This document shows, piece after piece, positions 6,723 to 46,036 of a DNA stretch of 64,000 nucleotides (position 1 is the first letter of the stretch; every line of letters starts with the position of its first letter). The DNA comes from Gammaproteobacteria bacterium. Lineage in GTDB: Bacteria > Pseudomonadota > Gammaproteobacteria > Burkholderiales > Gallionellaceae. The translations under genes were made by a program, and so were the position numbers. Below the pieces are notes generated by a model that did not search any database, had not been told where the DNA came from, and saw only the letters and a list, made by a program, of their open reading frames with translations. The stretch covers positions 310,001-374,000 of the forward strand of contig JAHJNJ010000036.1 of the NCBI GenBank assembly GCA_018820925.1, given 5' to 3'.

Positions 6723-7580
6723 ATGGATAAGTTGGACAAATTTCTTGCCCGCGCCGAAGGCATACTCTCCCGCCTGGAAAATATCCTGCCTGGAGCACAA
6801 CTGCCAGCGCCAGACTGGAAATCAGCCGCCGCCTTCCGCTGGGATCACCAGCAACGCACGCTGCATCCCGTTCCCAACTTCCAGCGCATCGCGCTCACCG
6901 ACTTGCTCGGGATTGACGACCAGAAGCAGCGTGTCCGGCAGAACACCCTGCAATTCGTGCGCGGCGGTACGGCAAACAACGTGCTGCTTTCCGGCGCGCG
7001 CGGCACGGGCAAGTCGTCGCTGGTGAAAGCGCTGTTGAACGAATACGCCGGACAAGGCCTGCGCGTGATCCAGATCGACAAGCAGGGTTTGATCGATTTG
7101 TCGCACATCGTCGGCCTGGTGCAGGGGCGCGACGAGCGCTTCATCCTGTATTGCGACGATCTCTCCTTCAATGCTGACGAGCCCGGCTACCAATCGCTCA
7201 AGGCCGCGCTGGATGGCGATCTGGTGGCGTTTTCCGATAACCTGCTCATTTATGCGACTTCCAACCGCCGTCATCTGATGCCGCAATCCATGCAGGACAA
7301 TCTCGCCACCCAATACGTCGGCGATGAAGTGCATCCGGCGGAAAGCGTGGAAGAGAAAGTGTCATTATCCGAGCGCTTCGGTTTGTGGATTTCGTTTTAT
7401 CCGTTCACGCAGGATGAATATCTGGCAATAGCTGTGCACTGGCTGGCGCATCATGGCTGGAAACAGGGAATGACGGATGAAGTGCGCACTGCGGCTTTGC
7501 AGTGGTCGCTGATGAGAGGATCCAGAAGTGGCCGGGTGGCGGGGCAGTTTGCAAGGGATTGGTGCGGAAGGAATTCGTAG
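6723..7580 (+). CDS. DUF815-family AAA ATPase
   Basis: A 285-residue ATPase of the DUF815 family. The Walker A motif GARGTGKSSLVKA lies near residues 92-104, and a Walker B-like strand FILYCDDLSF is near 140. The YATSNRRHLMP segment is typical of the family. The biological role of the family is not established. It is 36 bases downstream of argJ and preceded by AAAAGG at the right distance; a small CTCCCG/CGGGAG hairpin without a T-run lies between the two. The same order (argJ, DUF815, Nudix) recurs in betaproteobacteria. Confidence 0.85.
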   Translation: MDKLDKFLARAEGILSRLENILPGAQLPAPDWKSAAAFRWDHQQRTLHPVPNFQRIALTDLLGIDDQKQRVRQNTLQFVRGGTANNVLLSGARGTGKSSLVKALLNEYAGQGLRVIQIDKQGLIDLSHIVGLVQGRDERFILYCDDLSFNADEPGYQSLKAALDGDLVAFSDNLLIYATSNRRHLMPQSMQDNLATQYVGDEVHPAESVEEKVSLSERFGLWISFYPFTQDEYLAIAVHWLAHHGWKQGMTDEVRTAALQWSLMRGSRSGRVAGQFARDWCGRNS

Positions 7581-7626
7581 TGGGGTTGCCCATTCCGGAT
7601 GAAGTTGATTTTGCGAGGAAGATACG

Positions 7627-7950
7627 ATGAAGAAAATAGTCTTGACGCTGATAGCGATTGCCATGCTGGCAAGTATTACGATGAATGCGAATGCCTCCGT
7701 AACGGTAAAGGATGCTCCCTCATGTGCCGAATGGAACCCAAACAAAGCAACGCATAGAATATGGATAGAAGCTTTTTTATCCGGAATTGCGATTGAGAGG
7801 AACGATGATTTTCTAGATAAAAACAGCCTCATGAAAATCATTCAGTGGGTAAACAACTATTGCAAAGCCAATCCCAAGGGGGAGGTGACCGTGGCGGGGG
7901 TTCAATTTTCGTTGGAGTTTACGACGCTACATCAATCTGCTCTCCATTAA
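7627..7950 (+). CDS. small secreted protein of unknown function
   Basis: The 107-residue product has a clear Sec signal peptide (KKIVLTLIAIAMLASITMNANA, cleavage near residue 23) and a short mature domain with two cysteines (SCAEWN and NNYCKANP) that could form one disulfide. The spacing of Cys, Trp and the YC..NP motif resembles small periplasmic HdeA/Rap1a-like helical proteins, but I cannot assign a family. Base composition is visibly AT-richer than argJ, the DUF815 gene and the Nudix gene around it, which hints at later acquisition. A GAGGAAG ribosome site precedes the ATG. Confidence 0.65.
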   Translation: MKKIVLTLIAIAMLASITMNANASVTVKDAPSCAEWNPNKATHRIWIEAFLSGIAIERNDDFLDKNSLMKIIQWVNNYCKANPKGEVTVAGVQFSLEFTTLHQSALH

Positions 7951-7989
7951 CTGGAAAAGCCCGGGCGGACGGACGAGGATGATGTTCCA

Positions 7990-8946
7990 TTGAATAAACC
8001 AACTGAAGAAGCAAAAATCCTCGAAGTTTCCGCCGCCGTCCTTCAGCGTTCGGATGGGACCTTCCTCCTTGCCCAACGCCCGCCCGATAAAATATGGGCA
8101 GGCTACTGGGAGTTTCCCGGCGGCAAGATCGAGCCGGGCGAGACGCCGTACCATGCGCTGGTGCGCGAACTGCGCGAGGAGCTCGGCATCACCGTTCAGA
8201 CCGCCTATCCCTGGCTTAGCCGCGTGTTCGCCTATCCGCATGCCACCGTGCGCCTCAATTTTTTCCGTGTGACGGAATGGTCAGGTGAGCTGCACCCGCA
8301 TGAAGGACAGCAATTCTCCTGGCAAAATTCTGCGCGCGTAGTCGTCGATCCCATTCTCCCCGCCAATGCTCCCATCCTGCGCGCACTGGAATTGCCCTTT
8401 CTTTACGCCATCAGCAATGCTGCCGAGCTGGGAGTTGAATTGTTCCTGAAGCGGCTGGAAGCAAGGCTGGAGATGGGCCTGCGGCTGATTCAGTTGCGCG
8501 AAAAAGACCTGCCGCGCAACGAATTGCGCGCACTGGCGCAGCAGGTCACAACGATGGCTCACGCGCATGGAGCAAAAGTGTTGCTCAATAGCGATGTGGC
8601 ATTGGTTCAGGAGGTGAGTGCGGACGGCGTGCAATTGGCTTCGGTGCAACTCGCGGAGCTGCGGCAGCGTCCCGCGGTGGATTGGTGTGCAGCTTCCTGC
8701 CATTCTGCGGAGGAGTTGCGCCGGGCTGAAGCTTTGGGGTGCGACTTTGCATTATTGAGTCCGGTACTGCCGACCCAATCCCATCCGGGTGCGCCGCATC
8801 TGGGTTGGGACAATTTTGCGGCCGTTGCGGCGGGCTCGACTATTCCGGTGTATGCCCTGGGTGGTTTGAAACACGATGATTTGCAGACCGCCTGGCAACA
8901 CGGTGCGCACGGTATTGCCTTGCTGCGTCAGGCCTGGGTTCCCTGA
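7990..8946 (+). CDS. Nudix hydrolase fused to a ThiE-like domain (MutT-TMP synthase fusion)
   Basis: Residues 10-130 form a MutT-type Nudix domain with a complete Nudix box (GGKIEPG...RELREELG), predicted to hydrolyse oxidised nucleotides such as 8-oxo-dGTP. Residues 140-318 form a TIM-barrel domain resembling thiamine-phosphate synthase ([20 protein letters not shown]-like strand, ALGGL near the end). This fusion is known in beta- and gammaproteobacteria, and the second domain's activity is uncertain. The start appears to be TTG at 7990, because the two nearby ATGs are in another frame and hit a stop at once. The 3' end overlaps the convergent yacG gene by 19 bases. Confidence 0.88.
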
Positions 8947-14276: not shown

Positions 14277-15257
14277 CTACCATTCCTTGAACACAACGCC
14301 GATGCCGAGCGTCGTCTGCCAATAGTTGTAGTCGATCAGGCTGTCGCCGTAACCGGTGGTCAACTGGAAATTGAGTTGGGAAGATTTGCCGATCTTGAAT
14401 GGACTGGCCCAGTCCAGTTGCATGAAGCCCTTGTGTCCATGCGGGTCGAGATTGCTGCGCAGCAGCATGATGACCTCGTCGTCACGTTCCGGCAGCCAGT
14501 GAACGACCAGTTCCGCACGGCCCATATAGCGCGTCAGATCGGGATTGTCATCCTTGGCCGGGCTCTCCGGCAAACGCCACCAACCCCGTCCCATTACATA
14601 GACATCTTCCCATTCCCAGCCGCCCTGCAAGTAAAACCGGTTCCAACTGCGGGAATCCGGATTGCTGCGGCCGTTCGATTGATGTGAAAAGCCGAGATTG
14701 AGCAATTTCCAACCTTGCGCGTTTCCCGTGCCAAAGGTGCCGATAAGCTCGGGCTCATAGTTTGATTCACGGAAAGGCGATGAATTTCTCACGTTAAACG
14801 CCTGCCAATAGGCCTGCTGGGTGAAGGCGCCCCAAAGCCGAAAATCTTTGAAACCCAGAAATTCCAGATCGCGGTAATTGCCTGCCTCCGATTTTGCGCT
14901 GAACTGAAATTTCATCTCAGTGTTCTGATAGGGGTAGGGCGCTAGCGCCGAGTGTTCGGGCGAAGGGGAGGTTGGCGACTTGTTGATGTTGGAAGTATGG
15001 CGGATCAACATATAGTTTTTGCGATACGGCTCCAGATGGCGTATGCCACCGGTATCGGGGTTTCCCTGTCCATCCAGATCCCAGGCCTGAGTCAGGTAGC
15101 TGCGTGGTGGCGGCTTGATATTGGTGGCCATGTCATAGCATCTCAGGCGGGCATTTTTGTTCACGATGCTGGAGCAGGCCTCCATGGCGGAAATCTCTGC
15201 ATGCGCGGGGCTGACAGTGAATGCGCAAAGAAAAACAAAGGCAAGAATGCAACGCAT
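14277..15257 (-). CDS. pldA: Outer-membrane phospholipase A
   Basis: PldA is a calcium-dependent beta-barrel phospholipase that removes mislocalised phospholipids from the outer leaflet. The protein has a signal peptide (RCILAFVFLCAFTVSPAHA), a short cysteine-containing N-terminal segment and the catalytic region GFSHQSNGRSNPDSRSWNR, holding the His and Ser of the family. The last residue of the barrel is aromatic followed by short tail (VVFKEW), as in many outer-membrane barrels. The ATG at 15257 is chosen because it gives the signal peptide directly. It follows lgt by 8 bases, so both lipid-related genes are likely co-transcribed. Confidence 0.92.
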   Translation of the reverse strand: MRCILAFVFLCAFTVSPAHAEISAMEACSSIVNKNARLRCYDMATNIKPPPRSYLTQAWDLDGQGNPDTGGIRHLEPYRKNYMLIRHTSNINKSPTSPSPEHSALAPYPYQNTEMKFQFSAKSEAGNYRDLEFLGFKDFRLWGAFTQQAYWQAFNVRNSSPFRESNYEPELIGTFGTGNAQGWKLLNLGFSHQSNGRSNPDSRSWNRFYLQGGWEWEDVYVMGRGWWRLPESPAKDDNPDLTRYMGRAELVVHWLPERDDEVIMLLRSNLDPHGHKGFMQLDWASPFKIGKSSQLNFQLTTGYGDSLIDYNYWQTTLGIGVVFKEW

Positions 15258-39338: not shown

Positions 39339-39373
39339 GGGGCGGTTGCAATCACATCGAAACACAGGTGCTT

Positions 39374-40279
39374 ATGTCGCGTTCTGCCTTGCAATCCTCT
39401 TCCTCCCTGATGAAAGTTCTGCGAGAACTGGATGCCGGGTTGATGGACCACACCTCATGGCTGAAGGTGCTGCACCGCGCCATGGTGAGCGGAAGCACGC
39501 CCACACCGAGCGACCTGCTGCCCGATGCGCACTGCCGTTGTCATTTCGGATTGTGGTATTACGGCAAGGAACACCCGGAACTGCAGGATGGGCCGTGGTT
39601 CAGGAATATCGGGATATTCCACGAGAACATGCACGAGCAGGCGCGCCGGTTGTTGCTGAAAAGGAATACCGGCGAGCCGGTCACGCCGGATGAATACGAC
39701 CAATTCATGGATATGGCGATTCACTTCAAACTGGAAGTGCGCGGCCTGCAAACCGATATCATCAACCGGGTCTGCGAGGTTGATCACCTGACCGGCGCGC
39801 GCAACCGCAACAGCATGAATTTCAAATTGCTCGAAGAGCATGATCGCATGTCGCGCAATGACCAGCCCTGCTGCCTGTGCATGATGGACATCGACCATTT
39901 CAAGCAAGTCAACGATACCTACGGCCATGTTGCGGGGGATAGTGTGCTGCATGGTGCCGTCCAGTTTCTGGGCAAGAAGATGCGGCGCTACGACACGATT
40001 TTCCGTTTCGGCGGCGAGGAGTTTCTGTTCAGCCTGCCCAACACCGGGATGCAGGAGGCCTTTGCCATCGTGGACCGGTTGCGTGTCGAGTTGGCGGAGT
40101 TGCCAATCGGGCTCAAGGGGCACGGCGACATTTCTGTCACGGCGTCTTTCGGCATTGCCAGCATGAATCCGGATGAGCCGGTGGATGACGCCATCCAGAA
40201 AGCGGATCACGCGCTGCTGTGTGCCAAAGCGGGCGGGCGCAACCGGGTCTGTTTGTGGGATATTCAAACCGGGGGCTGA
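39374..40279 (+). CDS. DgcZ-like diguanylate cyclase with zinc-sensing CZB domain
   Basis: The 301-residue protein has an N-terminal chemoreceptor zinc-binding (CZB) domain and a C-terminal GGDEF domain. CZB ligands are all present: His26 (MDHTSW), Cys56 (CRCHFG), His83 and His87 (FHENMH), each exactly four residues later than the zinc ligands of E. coli DgcZ. The cyclase site is RFGGEEFLF. By analogy, zinc binding should inhibit c-di-GMP synthesis. Start chosen at ATG 39374; GTG at 39368 is possible. The ZIP transporter two genes upstream may be related through zinc supply. Confidence 0.92.
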   Translation: MSRSALQSSSSLMKVLRELDAGLMDHTSWLKVLHRAMVSGSTPTPSDLLPDAHCRCHFGLWYYGKEHPELQDGPWFRNIGIFHENMHEQARRLLLKRNTGEPVTPDEYDQFMDMAIHFKLEVRGLQTDIINRVCEVDHLTGARNRNSMNFKLLEEHDRMSRNDQPCCLCMMDIDHFKQVNDTYGHVAGDSVLHGAVQFLGKKMRRYDTIFRFGGEEFLFSLPNTGMQEAFAIVDRLRVELAELPIGLKGHGDISVTASFGIASMNPDEPVDDAIQKADHALLCAKAGGRNRVCLWDIQTGG

Positions 40280-40414: not shown

Positions 40415-40984
40415 ATGATCACAAGCAAAGCAATCCGTGCTCTCACACTGGGTGTGGCAATCGGAGGCATTTCATTTTCAACGATTGCGTTAGCCGAAGA
40501 AATTCCGGCGCGCGGCCCGTTGCCATTTTCCGCGTACGACCAGAACGGGGATGGCTTCGTCAGTCAGGAAGAGTTCAATGCCGTACGTGAAAAACGCAAA
40601 GCCGAAGGCATGCCGATGCGCAATGCACTGTCTTTTGCTGACCTTGACCAGAACCAGGACGGGAAACTGTCTGTGGAAGAGTTTGCCGCACGGCGGACGG
40701 GGCGAATGGGCAATGCCCCCGGAGCCGGTCCGGGGGCCGGAATGCGGGGGATGATGCCCACCTTTTCGGAATTCGATCTGAACAAAGATGGGAAAATCAC
40801 CGAAGCGGAATTTACCGATGCCCGCACCGCGCGGATCACCAAGCGCCTGCAGGAAGGTTATCAGATGCGTGGGCTAGCCAATGCGGCCGCGTTCGAGGAT
40901 ATCGATACGAACCATGACGGCGCACTGTCTCCGGAAGAATTTACCGCGCAGCAGGCGATGCATCGGCAACAAATGCGTCAATAA
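40415..40984 (+). CDS. secreted EF-hand calcium-binding protein (copy 1)
   Basis: The 189-residue precursor has a signal peptide (residues 1-27, ending ALA) and four EF-hand loops: DQNGDGFVSQEE, DQNQDGKLSVEE, DLNKDGKITEAE and DTNHDGALSPEE, each with usable Ca2+ ligands. A Gly/Met/Pro-rich linker separates the pairs. It should be a periplasmic calcium buffer or sensor. A paralogue lies at 45467-46036, beyond the ATPase-MscS pair. AACCGGAGGAAATATC precedes the ATG. Confidence 0.9.
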   Translation: MITSKAIRALTLGVAIGGISFSTIALAEEIPARGPLPFSAYDQNGDGFVSQEEFNAVREKRKAEGMPMRNALSFADLDQNQDGKLSVEEFAARRTGRMGNAPGAGPGAGMRGMMPTFSEFDLNKDGKITEAEFTDARTARITKRLQEGYQMRGLANAAAFEDIDTNHDGALSPEEFTAQQAMHRQQMRQ

Positions 40985-41019
40985 CTGGTTTGCTTCGGCG
41001 GGAGGATTCTGGCAACCAA

Positions 41020-41096
41020 GTAGCGTGGGTACGCTTCTGTGCCCGCGCGGCAAATGAAAAGTGTCTCAGCGTAGGCGCAGAAGCGTGCCCGCCCTA
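41020..41096. repeat. diverged 77-bp nested palindromic repeat
   Basis: Starts GTAGCGTGGGTACGCTTCTG and ends GAAGCGTGCCCGCCCTA; the arms pair as in the 76-bp element at 23779, with different substitutions. It lies in the 400-base gap between the EF-hand and ATPase genes; the rest of that gap shows only a TATAAT at 41279-41284, about 100 bases before the ATPase start. Confidence 0.7.
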
Positions 41097-41384
41097 TTGC
41101 CCGCCATGCAATTTTGCCATACCCAATAATCCGTCACCCATCCCGCAAACACTGCGGCAAGCATAGCCGGGATGGAATGCAATGGAACCCGGGGTGTTCT
41201 GAAATGAAACGCTTCCCGGATTACGCTGCGGGCTGGCCACCTCGTTCCCTGCCAGGCAAGCCGCCGCCGCAACAGGGATATAATGCAGCGAGAATCATGG
41301 GGGCTATGTCGGAAACACCGGCGAGCCTTCGTTGATGTCGATCACAGTCGCAAGCATTCCGACGCGCGATGCAAGGGAAACGTT

Positions 41385-44300
41385 ATGCCGATACCGCAAC
41401 AATTCGCATCGATAGCGCTCTCACTCAGCCTGGTCTTGTTCCAGGCCACCCCTGCCGTCGCAGCCAGGCAGGTTGACAGCTGTCCGCCTGGACTGAATCT
41501 GGAGGCAAAGCAACGTCTGGCTCAACTGGAGGGCGTGCGGCAGAACATCGGTGATCTCATGTCCGGTGAGTTGGCCGTGGATACGCCGCTTGCCGCACTG
41601 TTTGCAGTCGACCTGAACAACGAAACCGCAGTCGCCAACCGCATCAAGGAATTGCAGGCGCTGAAAGCCGAGGGCAGGGGTTCGGCAGACTCGTCCGCAG
41701 CATATCGTGATTGTGCCAAGGCGGGTTCCGCACTGGCGACGCTGGTGGAAAAGCTGGATAACCAGCAACTGCTACTGGATCAGCAGCGGCTCGAGTTTCT
41801 TGCGCTGCCGCAAGATTCGCGCAGGGGGGTGATCAATGCGCTCAATGTTCGCAAGCAGCAGGTAGTCGCCGTTGCCGGGCTGGCCGAGGAGCGAAGTGCG
41901 GCCGACAAGCTGCAGAACGAGGCGGTACTCTCAGGAGCGAGCGCGGAAGAACGCGCGAAGAGTGCGGCCAGCCAGGATTTGCGCGAGATCGCTGCGCAAC
42001 GGGTGCTGTTGGAAAAGGCGCGTGAAACACTGGCGCGTTTGCAGGCGGAAATGGTTGCCGAGCTACAGGAGCGTGTTCAGTTCTACCAGCGCACTTCCGA
42101 CCAATTGTCGGTTTTGACTGCCGAGACGTTGAAGGGTGCGGCGGCCAAGCCCCTGCCTGAGGTCTACCGGGAATCCGTTGCGATCTGGCGCGAGTTGGTA
42201 GACCGGGTCTTCGAGCGCATAGCAGTGCCGGAAAAGAGTGTAGCCGTGCCTGACATCCCGCAGCTGCCGGACGAACTGCTTGCGAGGCTGAAAGGTACGG
42301 CGGAGGAAGCGCAATACCTGAGTGCATACCGCGAAACCGAGGCACTCAAAGCCGAGCTTGAACGTTCGCGCTTGCAGCGTTTCGAACAAGGCAGAAACGA
42401 TCTTTACCAGCTGCTGCAGACTGCGGGGCAGATGCGTTCTTCTCTCATGCAACAGAATCTGCAAGCCGGAAACGATGAGATTCTGAAGGTCTCATCGGAA
42501 TATTTTCAGGATATCGGGCGCGAAATTCGCATCGTGCCTTATCGGGTACTCGCGATCTTCTATAGCAAAGCGCTGGATTTTCGCCACAAGGCCAGCGCCG
42601 GCATCGACGGCTGGCTGGATATCGCCAGGCAGTCCTTCAACTTCCTGTTGCTCGTGGCGGTGTTCTTTGCCGCCTACACCGGGCTGCACCGCGTAAGTAG
42701 TGCGCTGGAACGTTTGCGCAATCATCTGGTACGGGAAAAATACAATCATGCCTATGCCCGGACGCTGGCGCACTGGATACGGCGGGGCAATGTCTATGTG
42801 CCCTGGGTGATCATGTTGCTCGCCGTGTATATCGCCGAGGATCTGGTGGCCGGGACCGCCATCACCCAGATCGGGCTGATCCTGCCCTACATCGCGTTCT
42901 ACCTGTGGTACCGGATTTCACTGAATCTGGCCTTGTCCATCATGGGGCTGGTGGCCTTCTCCGGCTCAATCCAGTCGTCCATGGCCGAGAAGCAGCGTCT
43001 GCTGCGTACCGTCCGGCTGGTCGGCATCTTTTTCTTCGTATTGATCGCCATTCTGCATGCCACGCAGGATGCTGTTGGCGAAGCACTGGTCTACCGGCTG
43101 GTATACGGGTTTGTGGTTTACGTGGGTATTGTGGTGTGCGCCTATGCGGCGCGCGAATGGCAACCGGAGATCGCCGCTGCGGCGAAGGAGTTGTTACCGG
43201 AACGCATCCATCTGGGCATAAGCAGGTTGGGCAAGAACGGCCTCTGGTCATGGTTCATCAGTCTGCCCGCGCTCCTGCTGTTGATCGTCACCCGGCTTGC
43301 GATCCGCGTTAAAAAATGGGCTGGCGAGTTCGACTTCTTCAAGCGAATCAGCGCAGCGCTGTTCTTGCGCCGGATTGAACATGCCAACAAGTCCGGCGGC
43401 CAAACAGATGCTGCCAATCAGCAACCGCCGCAATTGTCCCAGGATTATCTGCGCTGGTTCAAGCTCGAAGACATGGAAGACAAGACACTGTTGATCGAGC
43501 TTGAAAGTGACCTCCCTGCCGAGATCAAGTCGATCCTGAGCGCGTGGTCGGACAACAGTTCTCTCGATCACTCGCTGGCGCTGTATGGCGAGAAAGGCTG
43601 TGGGAAATCCAGCTTGCTGGACATGATCGAAATGCGTTACGAGAAATGTGCAGTGCGGCGTATCAACATTCCGCCCAAGCTGATTACACGCGAAGCGGTG
43701 CTCGGGTTCTTTGGCAAGGAGCTGGGAATGGATCTGTCGCTGGGTGCCGAGTCCCTGCTCAAGGCCGATGAGGGCAAGGAAGATGCTGTGCTGCTCATCG
43801 ACAATGCGCAGAACCTGTTTCTCGGCCAGCTGGGCGGGTTCGAAGGCTATCGCACCTTTGCCGAATTGATGAACAGCGGCACCGAGCATCTGTTCTGGTG
43901 CGTGACGTTCAATCTGCGTTCCTGGCATTACCTGCGCGCGGTATTCGGCGGCATGCCACTGTTCCGGCGCGCGATCGAGATCGAGGATTTTTCCGAGAAG
44001 GACATCATGAACCTGATTGTGGCGCGGCATCAGCGCACCGATGCCAAACTTGCCTACGACGACATCATTCGCGCGACGCAGAGCGAGGATGACCTGATGG
44101 GCGAGCATCAGGTGGAGAAACAATTCTTTCGTCTGCTGTGGGGGCAATCGAACGGCAATCCGCGCGCGGCACTCATGCTGTGGACGGCCTCACTGACCCC
44201 GCTGAGCGATGATCGCATGAAGGTCGGACTGCCCAAATATCCCAAAATCATCATCAACGAAAAATGGGGCGATGAGGCGCTGTTCGTCTATGCCGCGATC

Positions 44301-44498
44301 ATGCGCCATGAGAATCTGACGCAGGATGAAGTCGTTGCCGTTACCAACCTGCCGGAAAACATCGTGATCAATGCACTGGGCACCGGCTACGATGGCCACC
44401 TGCTGGATTGCGGCACTGACGGACGTTACCGCATTACCGCGATTGCCCAGGCCAGTGTGACCCGACTCCTGTTAGGAAAGAATTTCATCTATGAATGA
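41385..44498 (+). CDS. large exported-coil, multi-TM protein with P-loop ATPase domain
   Basis: The 1037-residue protein has a signal peptide (1-27), a long helical/coiled-coil region (about 40-400, rich in Glu, Gln, Leu and Arg), about seven membrane helices (first at 417-437, last at 620-640) and a cytoplasmic P-loop domain. Walker A is GEKGCGKSS at 735-743; Walker B is AVLLIDNAQ near 800-808. A winged-helix-like end (LTQDEVVAVTNLPENIVINA) follows. The N-terminal layout is like MscK/KefA channels, but where those have MscS, this has an ATPase; a separate MscS gene overlaps its end by 8 bases. I know no named family. The ATG at 41385 gives the signal peptide; an upstream start would destroy it. 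Confidence 0.85.
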   Translation: MPIPQQFASIALSLSLVLFQATPAVAARQVDSCPPGLNLEAKQRLAQLEGVRQNIGDLMSGELAVDTPLAALFAVDLNNETAVANRIKELQALKAEGRGSADSSAAYRDCAKAGSALATLVEKLDNQQLLLDQQRLEFLALPQDSRRGVINALNVRKQQVVAVAGLAEERSAADKLQNEAVLSGASAEERAKSAASQDLREIAAQRVLLEKARETLARLQAEMVAELQERVQFYQRTSDQLSVLTAETLKGAAAKPLPEVYRESVAIWRELVDRVFERIAVPEKSVAVPDIPQLPDELLARLKGTAEEAQYLSAYRETEALKAELERSRLQRFEQGRNDLYQLLQTAGQMRSSLMQQNLQAGNDEILKVSSEYFQDIGREIRIVPYRVLAIFYSKALDFRHKASAGIDGWLDIARQSFNFLLLVAVFFAAYTGLHRVSSALERLRNHLVREKYNHAYARTLAHWIRRGNVYVPWVIMLLAVYIAEDLVAGTAITQIGLILPYIAFYLWYRISLNLALSIMGLVAFSGSIQSSMAEKQRLLRTVRLVGIFFFVLIAILHATQDAVGEALVYRLVYGFVVYVGIVVCAYAAREWQPEIAAAAKELLPERIHLGISRLGKNGLWSWFISLPALLLLIVTRLAIRVKKWAGEFDFFKRISAALFLRRIEHANKSGGQTDAANQQPPQLSQDYLRWFKLEDMEDKTLLIELESDLPAEIKSILSAWSDNSSLDHSLALYGEKGCGKSSLLDMIEMRYEKCAVRRINIPPKLITREAVLGFFGKELGMDLSLGAESLLKADEGKEDAVLLIDNAQNLFLGQLGGFEGYRTFAELMNSGTEHLFWCVTFNLRSWHYLRAVFGGMPLFRRAIEIEDFSEKDIMNLIVARHQRTDAKLAYDDIIRATQSEDDLMGEHQVEKQFFRLLWGQSNGNPRAALMLWTASLTPLSDDRMKVGLPKYPKIIINEKWGDEALFVYAAIMRHENLTQDEVVAVTNLPENIVINALGTGYDGHLLDCGTDGRYRITAIAQASVTRLLLGKNFIYE

Positions 44499-45321
44499 AG
44501 CCGACCTGAATCAAATCACCGATATGGCGACCCTGTTCAGGCTGGATCGCCTCTTCCTGCTAGTGCTGGCGTTGCTGGCACTGGTGCTGGTGGTCAAGGG
44601 CATCACCCAGGTGGGCGATGCCCTGTACCGGCGCATTCCGCGGCGACGCATTCTGATCTCGCAGATCGCCACCACGCTGAACTTTTCCATCTACATCTTC
44701 GGCGGCCCCTACATTTTCTACGCCATCCTGCAGCCGCCGCGTGAAGTCATGCTGGCGGCGACCGGCAGTATCGCCGTCGCACTCGGTCTCTCCATGAAGG
44801 ATCTGGTGGCGTCGGTGATCGCGGGTTTCATCCTGCTGTTCGACCGGCCCTTCCAGGTTGGCGACCGTGTCTCTTTCGGTGATGTGTATGGCGAGATCGA
44901 GAGCATAGGCCTGCGTTCGGTGCGGCTGGTCACGCTGGACGACAATCTGGTCACCATCCCCAACAACCGTTTCATGTCTGATGTCGTTGCTTCCGGTAAT
45001 GCCGGTGCGCTGGACATGATGCTGGTATTCGATTTTTACATCGCACTCGATGCCGATATCCGTCTGGCGCGCGACCTGCTTTATGAAGTGGTCGTCACCA
45101 GCCGCTATGCCTACCTGAAAAAGCCGGTGATGATCGTGATGAAGGAAATGCCCATCGCCGAGCGGCTGGCATTGCAACTCAAGGCGAAAGCTTATGTAAT
45201 CGACGTGCGCTTCGAAAAAGCGTTCCAGACCGACGTGGTGCTGCGCGCCACCGAGGCCTTCAATCGCCACCACGTTAAACGTCCGCCTGTGGGTGTGGGA
45301 CAGTTCAAGTCCGCGATATAG
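44491..45321 (+). CDS. MscS-family small-conductance mechanosensitive channel
   Basis: The 276-residue protein has two N-terminal helices, then the pore helix and beta domain of MscS: ALGLSMKDLVASVIAGFILLF and DRPFQVGDRVSFGDVYGEIE, followed by TLDDNLVTIPNNRFMSD. It forms heptameric channels that release solutes under tension. It starts inside the last codons of the ATPase gene, so translation is coupled. The C-terminus is short, ending VGQFKSAI. Confidence 0.93.
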   Translation: MNEADLNQITDMATLFRLDRLFLLVLALLALVLVVKGITQVGDALYRRIPRRRILISQIATTLNFSIYIFGGPYIFYAILQPPREVMLAATGSIAVALGLSMKDLVASVIAGFILLFDRPFQVGDRVSFGDVYGEIESIGLRSVRLVTLDDNLVTIPNNRFMSDVVASGNAGALDMMLVFDFYIALDADIRLARDLLYEVVVTSRYAYLKKPVMIVMKEMPIAERLALQLKAKAYVIDVRFEKAFQTDVVLRATEAFNRHHVKRPPVGVGQFKSAI

Positions 45322-45466
45322 GCCGCCACGAAGCTGCTCGATCCGCCCGGACATGCCGCGTCTGCTTGCGGGATGTGCCGGTCGGCGATTGATCTCATAC
45401 AGGCGCCCCGATTACGCCGGCCGTCGGGGACTGCCGTTTTGTCCATGCAAAACCAGAGGAAACATC

Positions 45467-46036
45467 ATGAACTCGCGCAAGACAATCTGCTCCCTGACCG
45501 TTGTTGCCGCAATCGGCAGTGCAGTCCTGGCAATGGCGGCACATTCCGAACAACTCCCCGCCCGCAGCCCGGTCCCGTTCTCCGCCTATGACCAGAATGG
45601 CGACGGCGTAATCGGTAAGGCGGAATTCGATGCGGTGCGTGAACAGCGCAAAGCCGAAGGCAGGCCCATGCGCAACGCGCTGTCTTTTACCGATCTGGAC
45701 CAGAATCGTGACGACAAGATAACGGCGGAAGAATTTGCGGCAGCGCACTCGGCGCAATCTGCAAGACCGCGCGGGCCTGGCATGGGCGGCGGGATGCAGG
45801 GGAACATGCCCGAATTCTCCGAATTCGACCTGAACAAGGACGGCAAGGTCACCGAGGCGGAATTCACCGATGCCCGCACCGCGCGCATCACCAAGCGCCT
45901 GCAGGAAGGCTACCAGATGCGCGGCCTAGCCAACGCGCCGTCATTCGAAGATATCGACACAAGCCATGATGGCGCGATATCGCCGGAAGAGTTTGCCGTA
46001 CAGCGGGCGGAGCATCAGAAGCAGATGCGGCAGTGA
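45467..46036 (+). CDS. secreted EF-hand calcium-binding protein (copy 2)
   Basis: The product has 189 residues, the same as copy 1 at 40415, with a signal peptide and four EF loops: DQNGDGVIGKAE, DQNRDDKITAEE, DLNKDGKVTEAE and DTSHDGAISPEE. Loop 2 has Asp for the usual Gly at position 6 and may bind Ca2+ weakly. The region TEAEFTDARTARITKRLQEG is identical in both copies. It is 145 bases after the MscS gene, on the same strand. The ATG at 45467 follows AGAGGAAA. Confidence 0.9.
   Translation: MNSRKTICSLTVVAAIGSAVLAMAAHSEQLPARSPVPFSAYDQNGDGVIGKAEFDAVREQRKAEGRPMRNALSFTDLDQNRDDKITAEEFAAAHSAQSARPRGPGMGGGMQGNMPEFSEFDLNKDGKVTEAEFTDARTARITKRLQEGYQMRGLANAPSFEDIDTSHDGAISPEEFAVQRAEHQKQMRQ

Follow-up and report, generated by a model that had tools for sequence, protein, structure and literature searches.

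An ATPase gene kept beside an MscS-family channel gene: a candidate switch-and-channel module in Gallionellaceae and other bacteria

MscS channels are the textbook model of passive tension sensing, and a locus in a Gallionellaceae genome raises the question of whether part of this family could be controlled by a nucleotide-binding partner. The locus lies in a window of 64,000 nucleotides (assembly GCA_018820925.1, contig JAHJNJ010000036.1, forward strand, 310,001-374,000; positions below are those of the window), where a gene for a large platform protein with an ATPase-like domain overlaps a gene for an MscS-family subunit. An initial annotation described this layout, with an 8-base overlap and an EF-hand gene on each side, and the open reading frames (ORFs) and Pfam matches confirm it; it also proposed that all these genes form one mechanosensing system resembling a split MscK, with gating coupled to ATP and periplasmic Ca2+. 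We report that the ATPase and MscS genes are a conserved pair in Beta-, Gamma- and Alphaproteobacteria and in Bdellovibrionota. Comparison of their sequences suggests that they probably form a two-gene module, an AAA+/STAND-like nucleotide-binding switch with its own dedicated MscS-type channel.

Pairing of the ATPase and MscS genes across genomes

The pair occupies the following positions in the window:

41385 to 44498, plus strand: platform/ATPase protein, 1037 amino acids (ORF; Pfam AAA_22 at residues 730-830; homologues)
44491 to 45321, plus strand: MscS-family channel subunit, 276 amino acids (PF00924, E=3.4e-20; solved MscS channels)
44491 to 44498, plus strand: the 8 bases shared by the end of the ATPase gene and the beginning of MscS

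An alternative in-frame ATG upstream, at 41283, would extend the platform protein to 1071 amino acids.

Does an MscS gene always accompany this ATPase? Two samples were searched with up to five candidates scored per genome, so that each count is a minimum. In the sample of the collection's class (369 genomes, apparently including Betaproteobacteria), a profile of 22 ATPase domains (A6) matched eight genomes at 133 bits or more, and MscS adjoins the ATPase in all eight. A total of 111 genomes passed E<=1e-8; beneath the top eight, scores were at most 48 bits and came mainly from the P-loop region, and this MscS was present at none of the 22 weak loci that were fetched, which is why only the eight are counted. 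Of 398 genomes in the phylum sample, 17 passed E<=1e-12; sixteen scored at least 258 bits, each with MscS adjacent, and the seventeenth, at 50.5 bits, had no MscS neighbour. Both samples hold the window genome, leaving 23 distinct genomes. A phylum search with profile A5 gave 18 matches, two of which (L037 and L038, at most 39 bits) lack MscS and resemble ExeA/XrtA-type ATPases.

The same association was found in the other sets. Three plasmids, one from Caulobacter and two from Novosphingobium, carry relatives of the ATPase, each with MscS alongside, and distant ATPases from the class search (L005-L008) also stand beside MscS. One of the plasmid records is without annotation. One scan of genome contigs yielded 12 platform loci, all with MscS directly downstream, in Gallionella/Gallionellaceae (L009, L019), in metagenome-assembled genomes (MAGs) of Gammaproteobacteria or unplaced Proteobacteria (L010, L011, L020) and in Bdellovibrionota (L012-L018). 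The closest relative of the pair, at 67% identity, is that of L009, a Gallionella MAG. L002, L003 and L004 score like L019, L010 and L011 and are presumably identical loci, and L013 and L014 are nearly identical. Within the set of close relatives, platform homologues are present in two of 61 genomes, the window's included.

The overlap itself is also conserved. It measures 8 bases in all 16 loci of the long form, which encode the full platform (L001-L004 and L009-L020), taking the ATG closest to the ATPase stop in L003, L010 and L016, where earlier in-frame MscS starts exist; such constancy is not a matter of chance. The same overlap is kept even in relatives only 24-28% identical to the window protein, and it is found again in L022, which has no coil. 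Thus, in all sets examined, MscS stands beside every strong homologue of the ATPase, and the link between the two genes, which the initial annotation had expected to fail if the ATPase were widespread without MscS, has survived.

The pair may also have moved as a unit. L019, from a Gallionellaceae MAG, falls among Bdellovibrionota in both the ATPase and the MscS tree, which suggests joint transfer, but its contig is just 5 kb long and may be misbinned.

Several loci show additional features around the pair. In L013, a Bdellovibrio MAG and one of ten loci tested, a 300-nucleotide direct repeat (78%; 8431-8730 and 14369-14668) brackets the pair and overlaps small ORFs matching Recombinase (PF07508), and a recombinase-like ORF lies upstream of the pair in L017. 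A Phenol_MetA_deg gene (PF13557, for L019 by a Pfam match on its copy in L002), possibly for an outer-membrane barrel, lies closely 3' of MscS in L017 (13890-14696) and L019 (3738-4466). On the Caulobacter plasmid pNIBR24541 (L073), a second, different MscS-domain gene (7333-8271) directly follows the linked one.

Architecture of the platform ATPase and its channel partner

The platform protein of the window is made up of these parts:

41385 to 41465, plus strand: probable signal peptide, residues 1-27 (by eye and hydropathy peak)
41466 to 42614, plus strand: long helical coil region, presumed periplasmic from the signal peptide, about residues 28-410 (AlphaFold2 models)
42627 to 43307, plus strand: six or seven hydrophobic membrane helices, residues 415-641 (hydropathy and models)
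43587 to 43613, plus strand: Walker A, GEKGCGKSS, residues 735-743 (all 13 rows of the long-form alignment A3 have the lysine)
43785 to 43805, plus strand: Walker B region, LLIDN with D806, residues 801-807 (alignment A3; modelled strand 801-806)
44142 to 44165, plus strand: GQSNGNPR motif, residues 920-927, possibly sensor-2-like (inside the nearly invariant QFFRLLWGQSxGNPR of A3)
44271 to 44498, plus strand: predicted winged-helix-like C-terminal domain, about residues 963-1037 (modelled order of helices and strands; alignment with Cdc6/Orc1-type chains)

Walker A and Walker B motifs, as in an AAA+/STAND-type P-loop NTPase, are both present in the protein, and AAA_22 was found in all 13 members scanned against Pfam. 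An AlphaFold2 model built from 13 sequences (predicted local distance difference test, pLDDT, 75.8; predicted template modelling score, pTM, 0.46) has long helices across about residues 36-404, and its best Foldseek matches are Cdc6/Orc1 and other AAA+ proteins (2qby, 8.7e-7; 1fnn, 3.1e-6; 2qen, 1.9e-5). The ATPase thus resembles Cdc6/Orc1-type proteins, although TM-scores for the full-length model are low (0.16-0.20 by query, with a root-mean-square deviation (rmsd) of 12-19 and identity of 14-15%). The order of helices and strands would fit a winged helix after the nucleotide-binding core, and the Cdc6/Orc1 alignments run over some 400 columns, yet with the low TM-scores just given. A PDB sequence search with the platform protein gave no match up to E=10, and the N-terminal stretch modelled alone (residues 28-687; pLDDT 76.8, pTM 0.60) had no structural match at E<=0.001. 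The Walker A at residue 735 and the Walker B of the initial annotation hold, the latter with D806; the annotation's "about seven" helices become six clear ones, by family-averaged hydropathy and the model, and perhaps seven, by single-sequence hydropathy, which splits 491-527.

Three architectures share the ATPase-MscS core. Besides the long platform, there is a form with a shorter N-terminus and membrane helices (L023, L026-L036 and the plasmid copies) and one with no predicted membrane helix (L024 and L025), with which L005-L008 and L050 cluster in the ATPase tree. That the helix-free forms have an MscS partner of this kind too speaks for an ATPase in the cytoplasm. Together with the presumed use of ATP and a basic stretch after the last helix, they lead us to infer, tentatively, that the ATPase domain is cytoplasmic.

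The conservation of the nucleotide site differs between these forms. Of 35 tabulated members, 21 have the Walker A lysine, all 13 long forms among them, and 14 that retain their MscS neighbour have another residue there; in eight of the latter (L027-L029, L031-L033, L035 and L036) the lysine has become T, A or S. On the ATPase tree, the loss requires at least three changes. The coupling to ATP that the initial annotation envisaged could apply to the window and the long form, where Walker A is intact, but is not supported as a general rule. Repeated loss of the lysine favours a nucleotide-binding switch or a scaffold over an obligatory motor. It is also the kind of observation that would be expected if the ATPase-like protein were a structural or assembly partner of the MscS ring (a chaperone, anchor or clamp), with nucleotide vestigial or used in assembly only and tension still doing the gating. 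The fixed 8-base overlap, suggestive of coupled translation and assembly, points the same way. In the long form, however, the invariance of the lysine implies that nucleotide is probably still bound, and we regard a purely structural role as rather unlikely.

The channel subunit is a clear member of its family. It scores 72.4 bits against PF00924, the MscS beta-domain (curated cut-off 20.2), and aligns over residues 13-265 with the solved MscS channel 3udc, its best match (E=7.2e-15). In 13 linked members, hydropathy indicates three membrane helices (16-38, 59-75 and 90-117), the last running into the beta-domain, and the linked channel would build the usual MscS ring. One element is common to the ATPase-linked subunits:

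45187 to 45219, plus strand: KAYVIDVRFEK motif (in 35 of 35 linked and 0 of 32 other MscS proteins, the pattern having been composed after inspection of the linked set)

In a tree of the same 35 linked and 32 other proteins, a single branch separates the linked group from the rest (support 95/81; seen in 93% of bootstrap trees). The program warned of long branches, chiefly gen_L104, which joins next to the linked group. In 41 relatives, the linked MscS clade appeared in two genomes (434 bits each, the next score being 85.5), exactly those with the platform gene. As far as sequences can tell, the ATPase-linked channels form one separate MscS clade with a motif in their C-terminal part.

A proposed nucleotide switch on the channel, and other readings

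How might such a module work? We postulate a cytoplasmic ATPase domain that touches the channel at its cytoplasmic vestibule. Binding of nucleotide, and its hydrolysis where Walker A is intact, would then shift the switch and with it the point at which the channel opens. The coil and membrane helices that precede the ATPase in the long form could relay an envelope signal or the state of the membrane to the switch, and the soluble forms would sense a cytoplasmic cue. It is tempting to speculate further that in this MscS lineage a separate AAA+/STAND-like switch, driven by nucleotide, does the gating, which would make the channel more than a plain tension valve: a pore under energy or signal control, with anchored forms that read the envelope and soluble forms that read the cytoplasm, although we hold this wider proposal only tentatively and think it may well prove wrong. 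If true, a nucleotide switch would govern part of the MscS family, a prediction open to patch clamp and downshock assays, and proteins annotated just as "ATP-binding protein" or "AAA family ATPase" would gain a lead to their function.

Several observations weigh against the proposal of a switch with a dedicated channel. The loss of the Walker A lysine in 14 of 35 members that keep MscS means that ATP use is not general. A periplasmic N-terminus followed by six helices would leave the ATPase outside, and a cytoplasmic ATPase requires seven. The distances between ATPases and between their MscS partners are correlated (Spearman 0.872 over 34 pairs, with none of 2000 permutations as high), but in part this reflects common descent, and the two trees disagree on L012, which the ATPase tree puts with Bdellovibrionota and the MscS tree, on a weak branch (85/59), outside them. 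As to the clade, 30 of the 32 comparison proteins come from the window's genus and two from its order only, and nearly all linked MscS proteins were found via the ATPase, members of the clade without an ATPase having been sought only in the 41 relatives.

The gene context bears on a different reading, in which the pair is a defence or abortive-infection module: on a phage cue, the STAND-like ATPase would open MscS, and the leaking membrane would be the effector response. A weak STAND-type Pfam similarity, the patchy distribution (two of 61 relatives and at least eight of the 369 class genomes) and the surroundings of two copies, one beside type IV secretion system genes on the Caulobacter plasmid and another bracketed by recombinase-like fragments, would all suit such a role. 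The matches to PADLOC, however, are weak and mainly to the P-loop (platform protein, 0.015, to LmuB in the coil region; L017, 5.5e-7, at 715-756; L005, 2.5e-5, at 454-495), there is no ATPase match in phage records or in PHROGs, and no defence family was found among the eleven neighbour proteins scanned. In addition, eight matching genomes of the phylum sample belong to genus g319, a hint of stable inheritance, with the reservation that non-matching g319 genomes would go unlisted. On balance, a defence function appears improbable.

The switch-and-channel module as we propose it leaves out the two flanking genes:

40415 to 40984, plus strand: EF-hand protein 1 (EF1), 189 amino acids, four EF-hand stretches (ORF; judged outside the system)
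45467 to 46036, plus strand: EF-hand protein 2 (EF2; start taken as the ATG at 45467, the longest ORF running from 45293; judged outside the system)

The initial annotation had joined these EF-hand proteins, the platform ATPase and MscS in one Ca2+-responsive mechanosensing unit, for which their adjacency and common strand in the window speak. The EF genes, however, do not travel with the pair. When both EF proteins were searched by tblastn against L001-L020, some of which (L002-L008) have short flanks, only the window's own locus matched. In L009, which holds the pair's closest relative, the 10 kb to each side are free of EF-hand homologues. Conversely, when the window genome and 40 relatives were compared, an EF protein was found in two copies in the window genome and as one copy (69%) in G003, a genome of the same genus, 89% complete, without a platform match. 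The syntenic locus of G003 has a GGDEF gene, a single EF gene and the ubiA-like and recG-like genes (named by eye) of the window, and no ATPase/MscS pair, which suggests that the EF bracket of the window is a local accident. EF1 and EF2 are about 67% identical to each other and 69-70% identical to the G003 copy; being about as far apart as each is from that copy, they are not a fresh duplication. The EF genes are, therefore, best read as chance neighbours of the pair, and we rejected the Ca2+ unit, which now seems scarcely credible.

Two further elements lie nearby. Just upstream of EF1, at 39368-40279, is a gene for a diguanylate cyclase with a chemoreceptor zinc-binding (CZB) domain, and the gap between EF1 and the platform gene holds a palindromic repeat (41010-41110; DNA hairpin z-score -3.4) that matches here and at four other places in the genome.

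Comparison with known systems

The absence of a described counterpart, as claimed in the initial annotation, is upheld by our searches: of the ATPases scanned, only the P-loop domain is covered by families of Pfam, NCBIfam, PADLOC or PHROGs, and the gene pair was not found described in the literature searched, by titles and abstract openings and with subscription journals thinly covered. PMC8195603 makes no mention of MscS.

Toward the ATPase, the nearest known proteins are AAA+ NTPases of Cdc6/Orc1 type and STAND-like NTPases, with which the window protein shares Foldseek matches and AAA_22. It differs from them in that neither a replication context nor C-terminal repeats were observed. Like E. 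coli MscS and YnaI, the channel subunit has PF00924, and most of its sequence can be aligned with solved channels; it differs in its separate clade, its C-terminal motif and the ATPase-like gene next to it.

MscK likewise joins an extended N-terminal region and additional membrane helices to an MscS channel. MscK (KefA), however, is one polypeptide (1120 residues in 7uw5), whereas MscS and platform have an ORF each, here as in every one of the 16 long-form loci, and the partner ends in an ATPase. The porin-like and transmembrane families of MscK (PF12795 and PF12794) are missing from the 25 Pfam families listed, out of 28, for 13 members (E<=0.1), and from the nine for the window's platform protein (E<=1). 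In the fold search with the modelled N-terminal and membrane part, the MscK structure 7ux1 ranked second (E=0.43, probability 0.13, TM-score 0.11, rmsd 28.6). Of the "split MscK" idea, the separate MscS subunit and the ATPase on its platform partner stand, and homology to MscK was set aside, being unsupported by the Pfam and fold searches of coil and membrane part. A further parallel is offered by the bCNG-type channels, in which MscS is combined with a nucleotide-binding regulator in the form of a fused cyclic-nucleotide-binding domain; in the pair described here, the regulator would instead be a separate AAA+/STAND-like protein.

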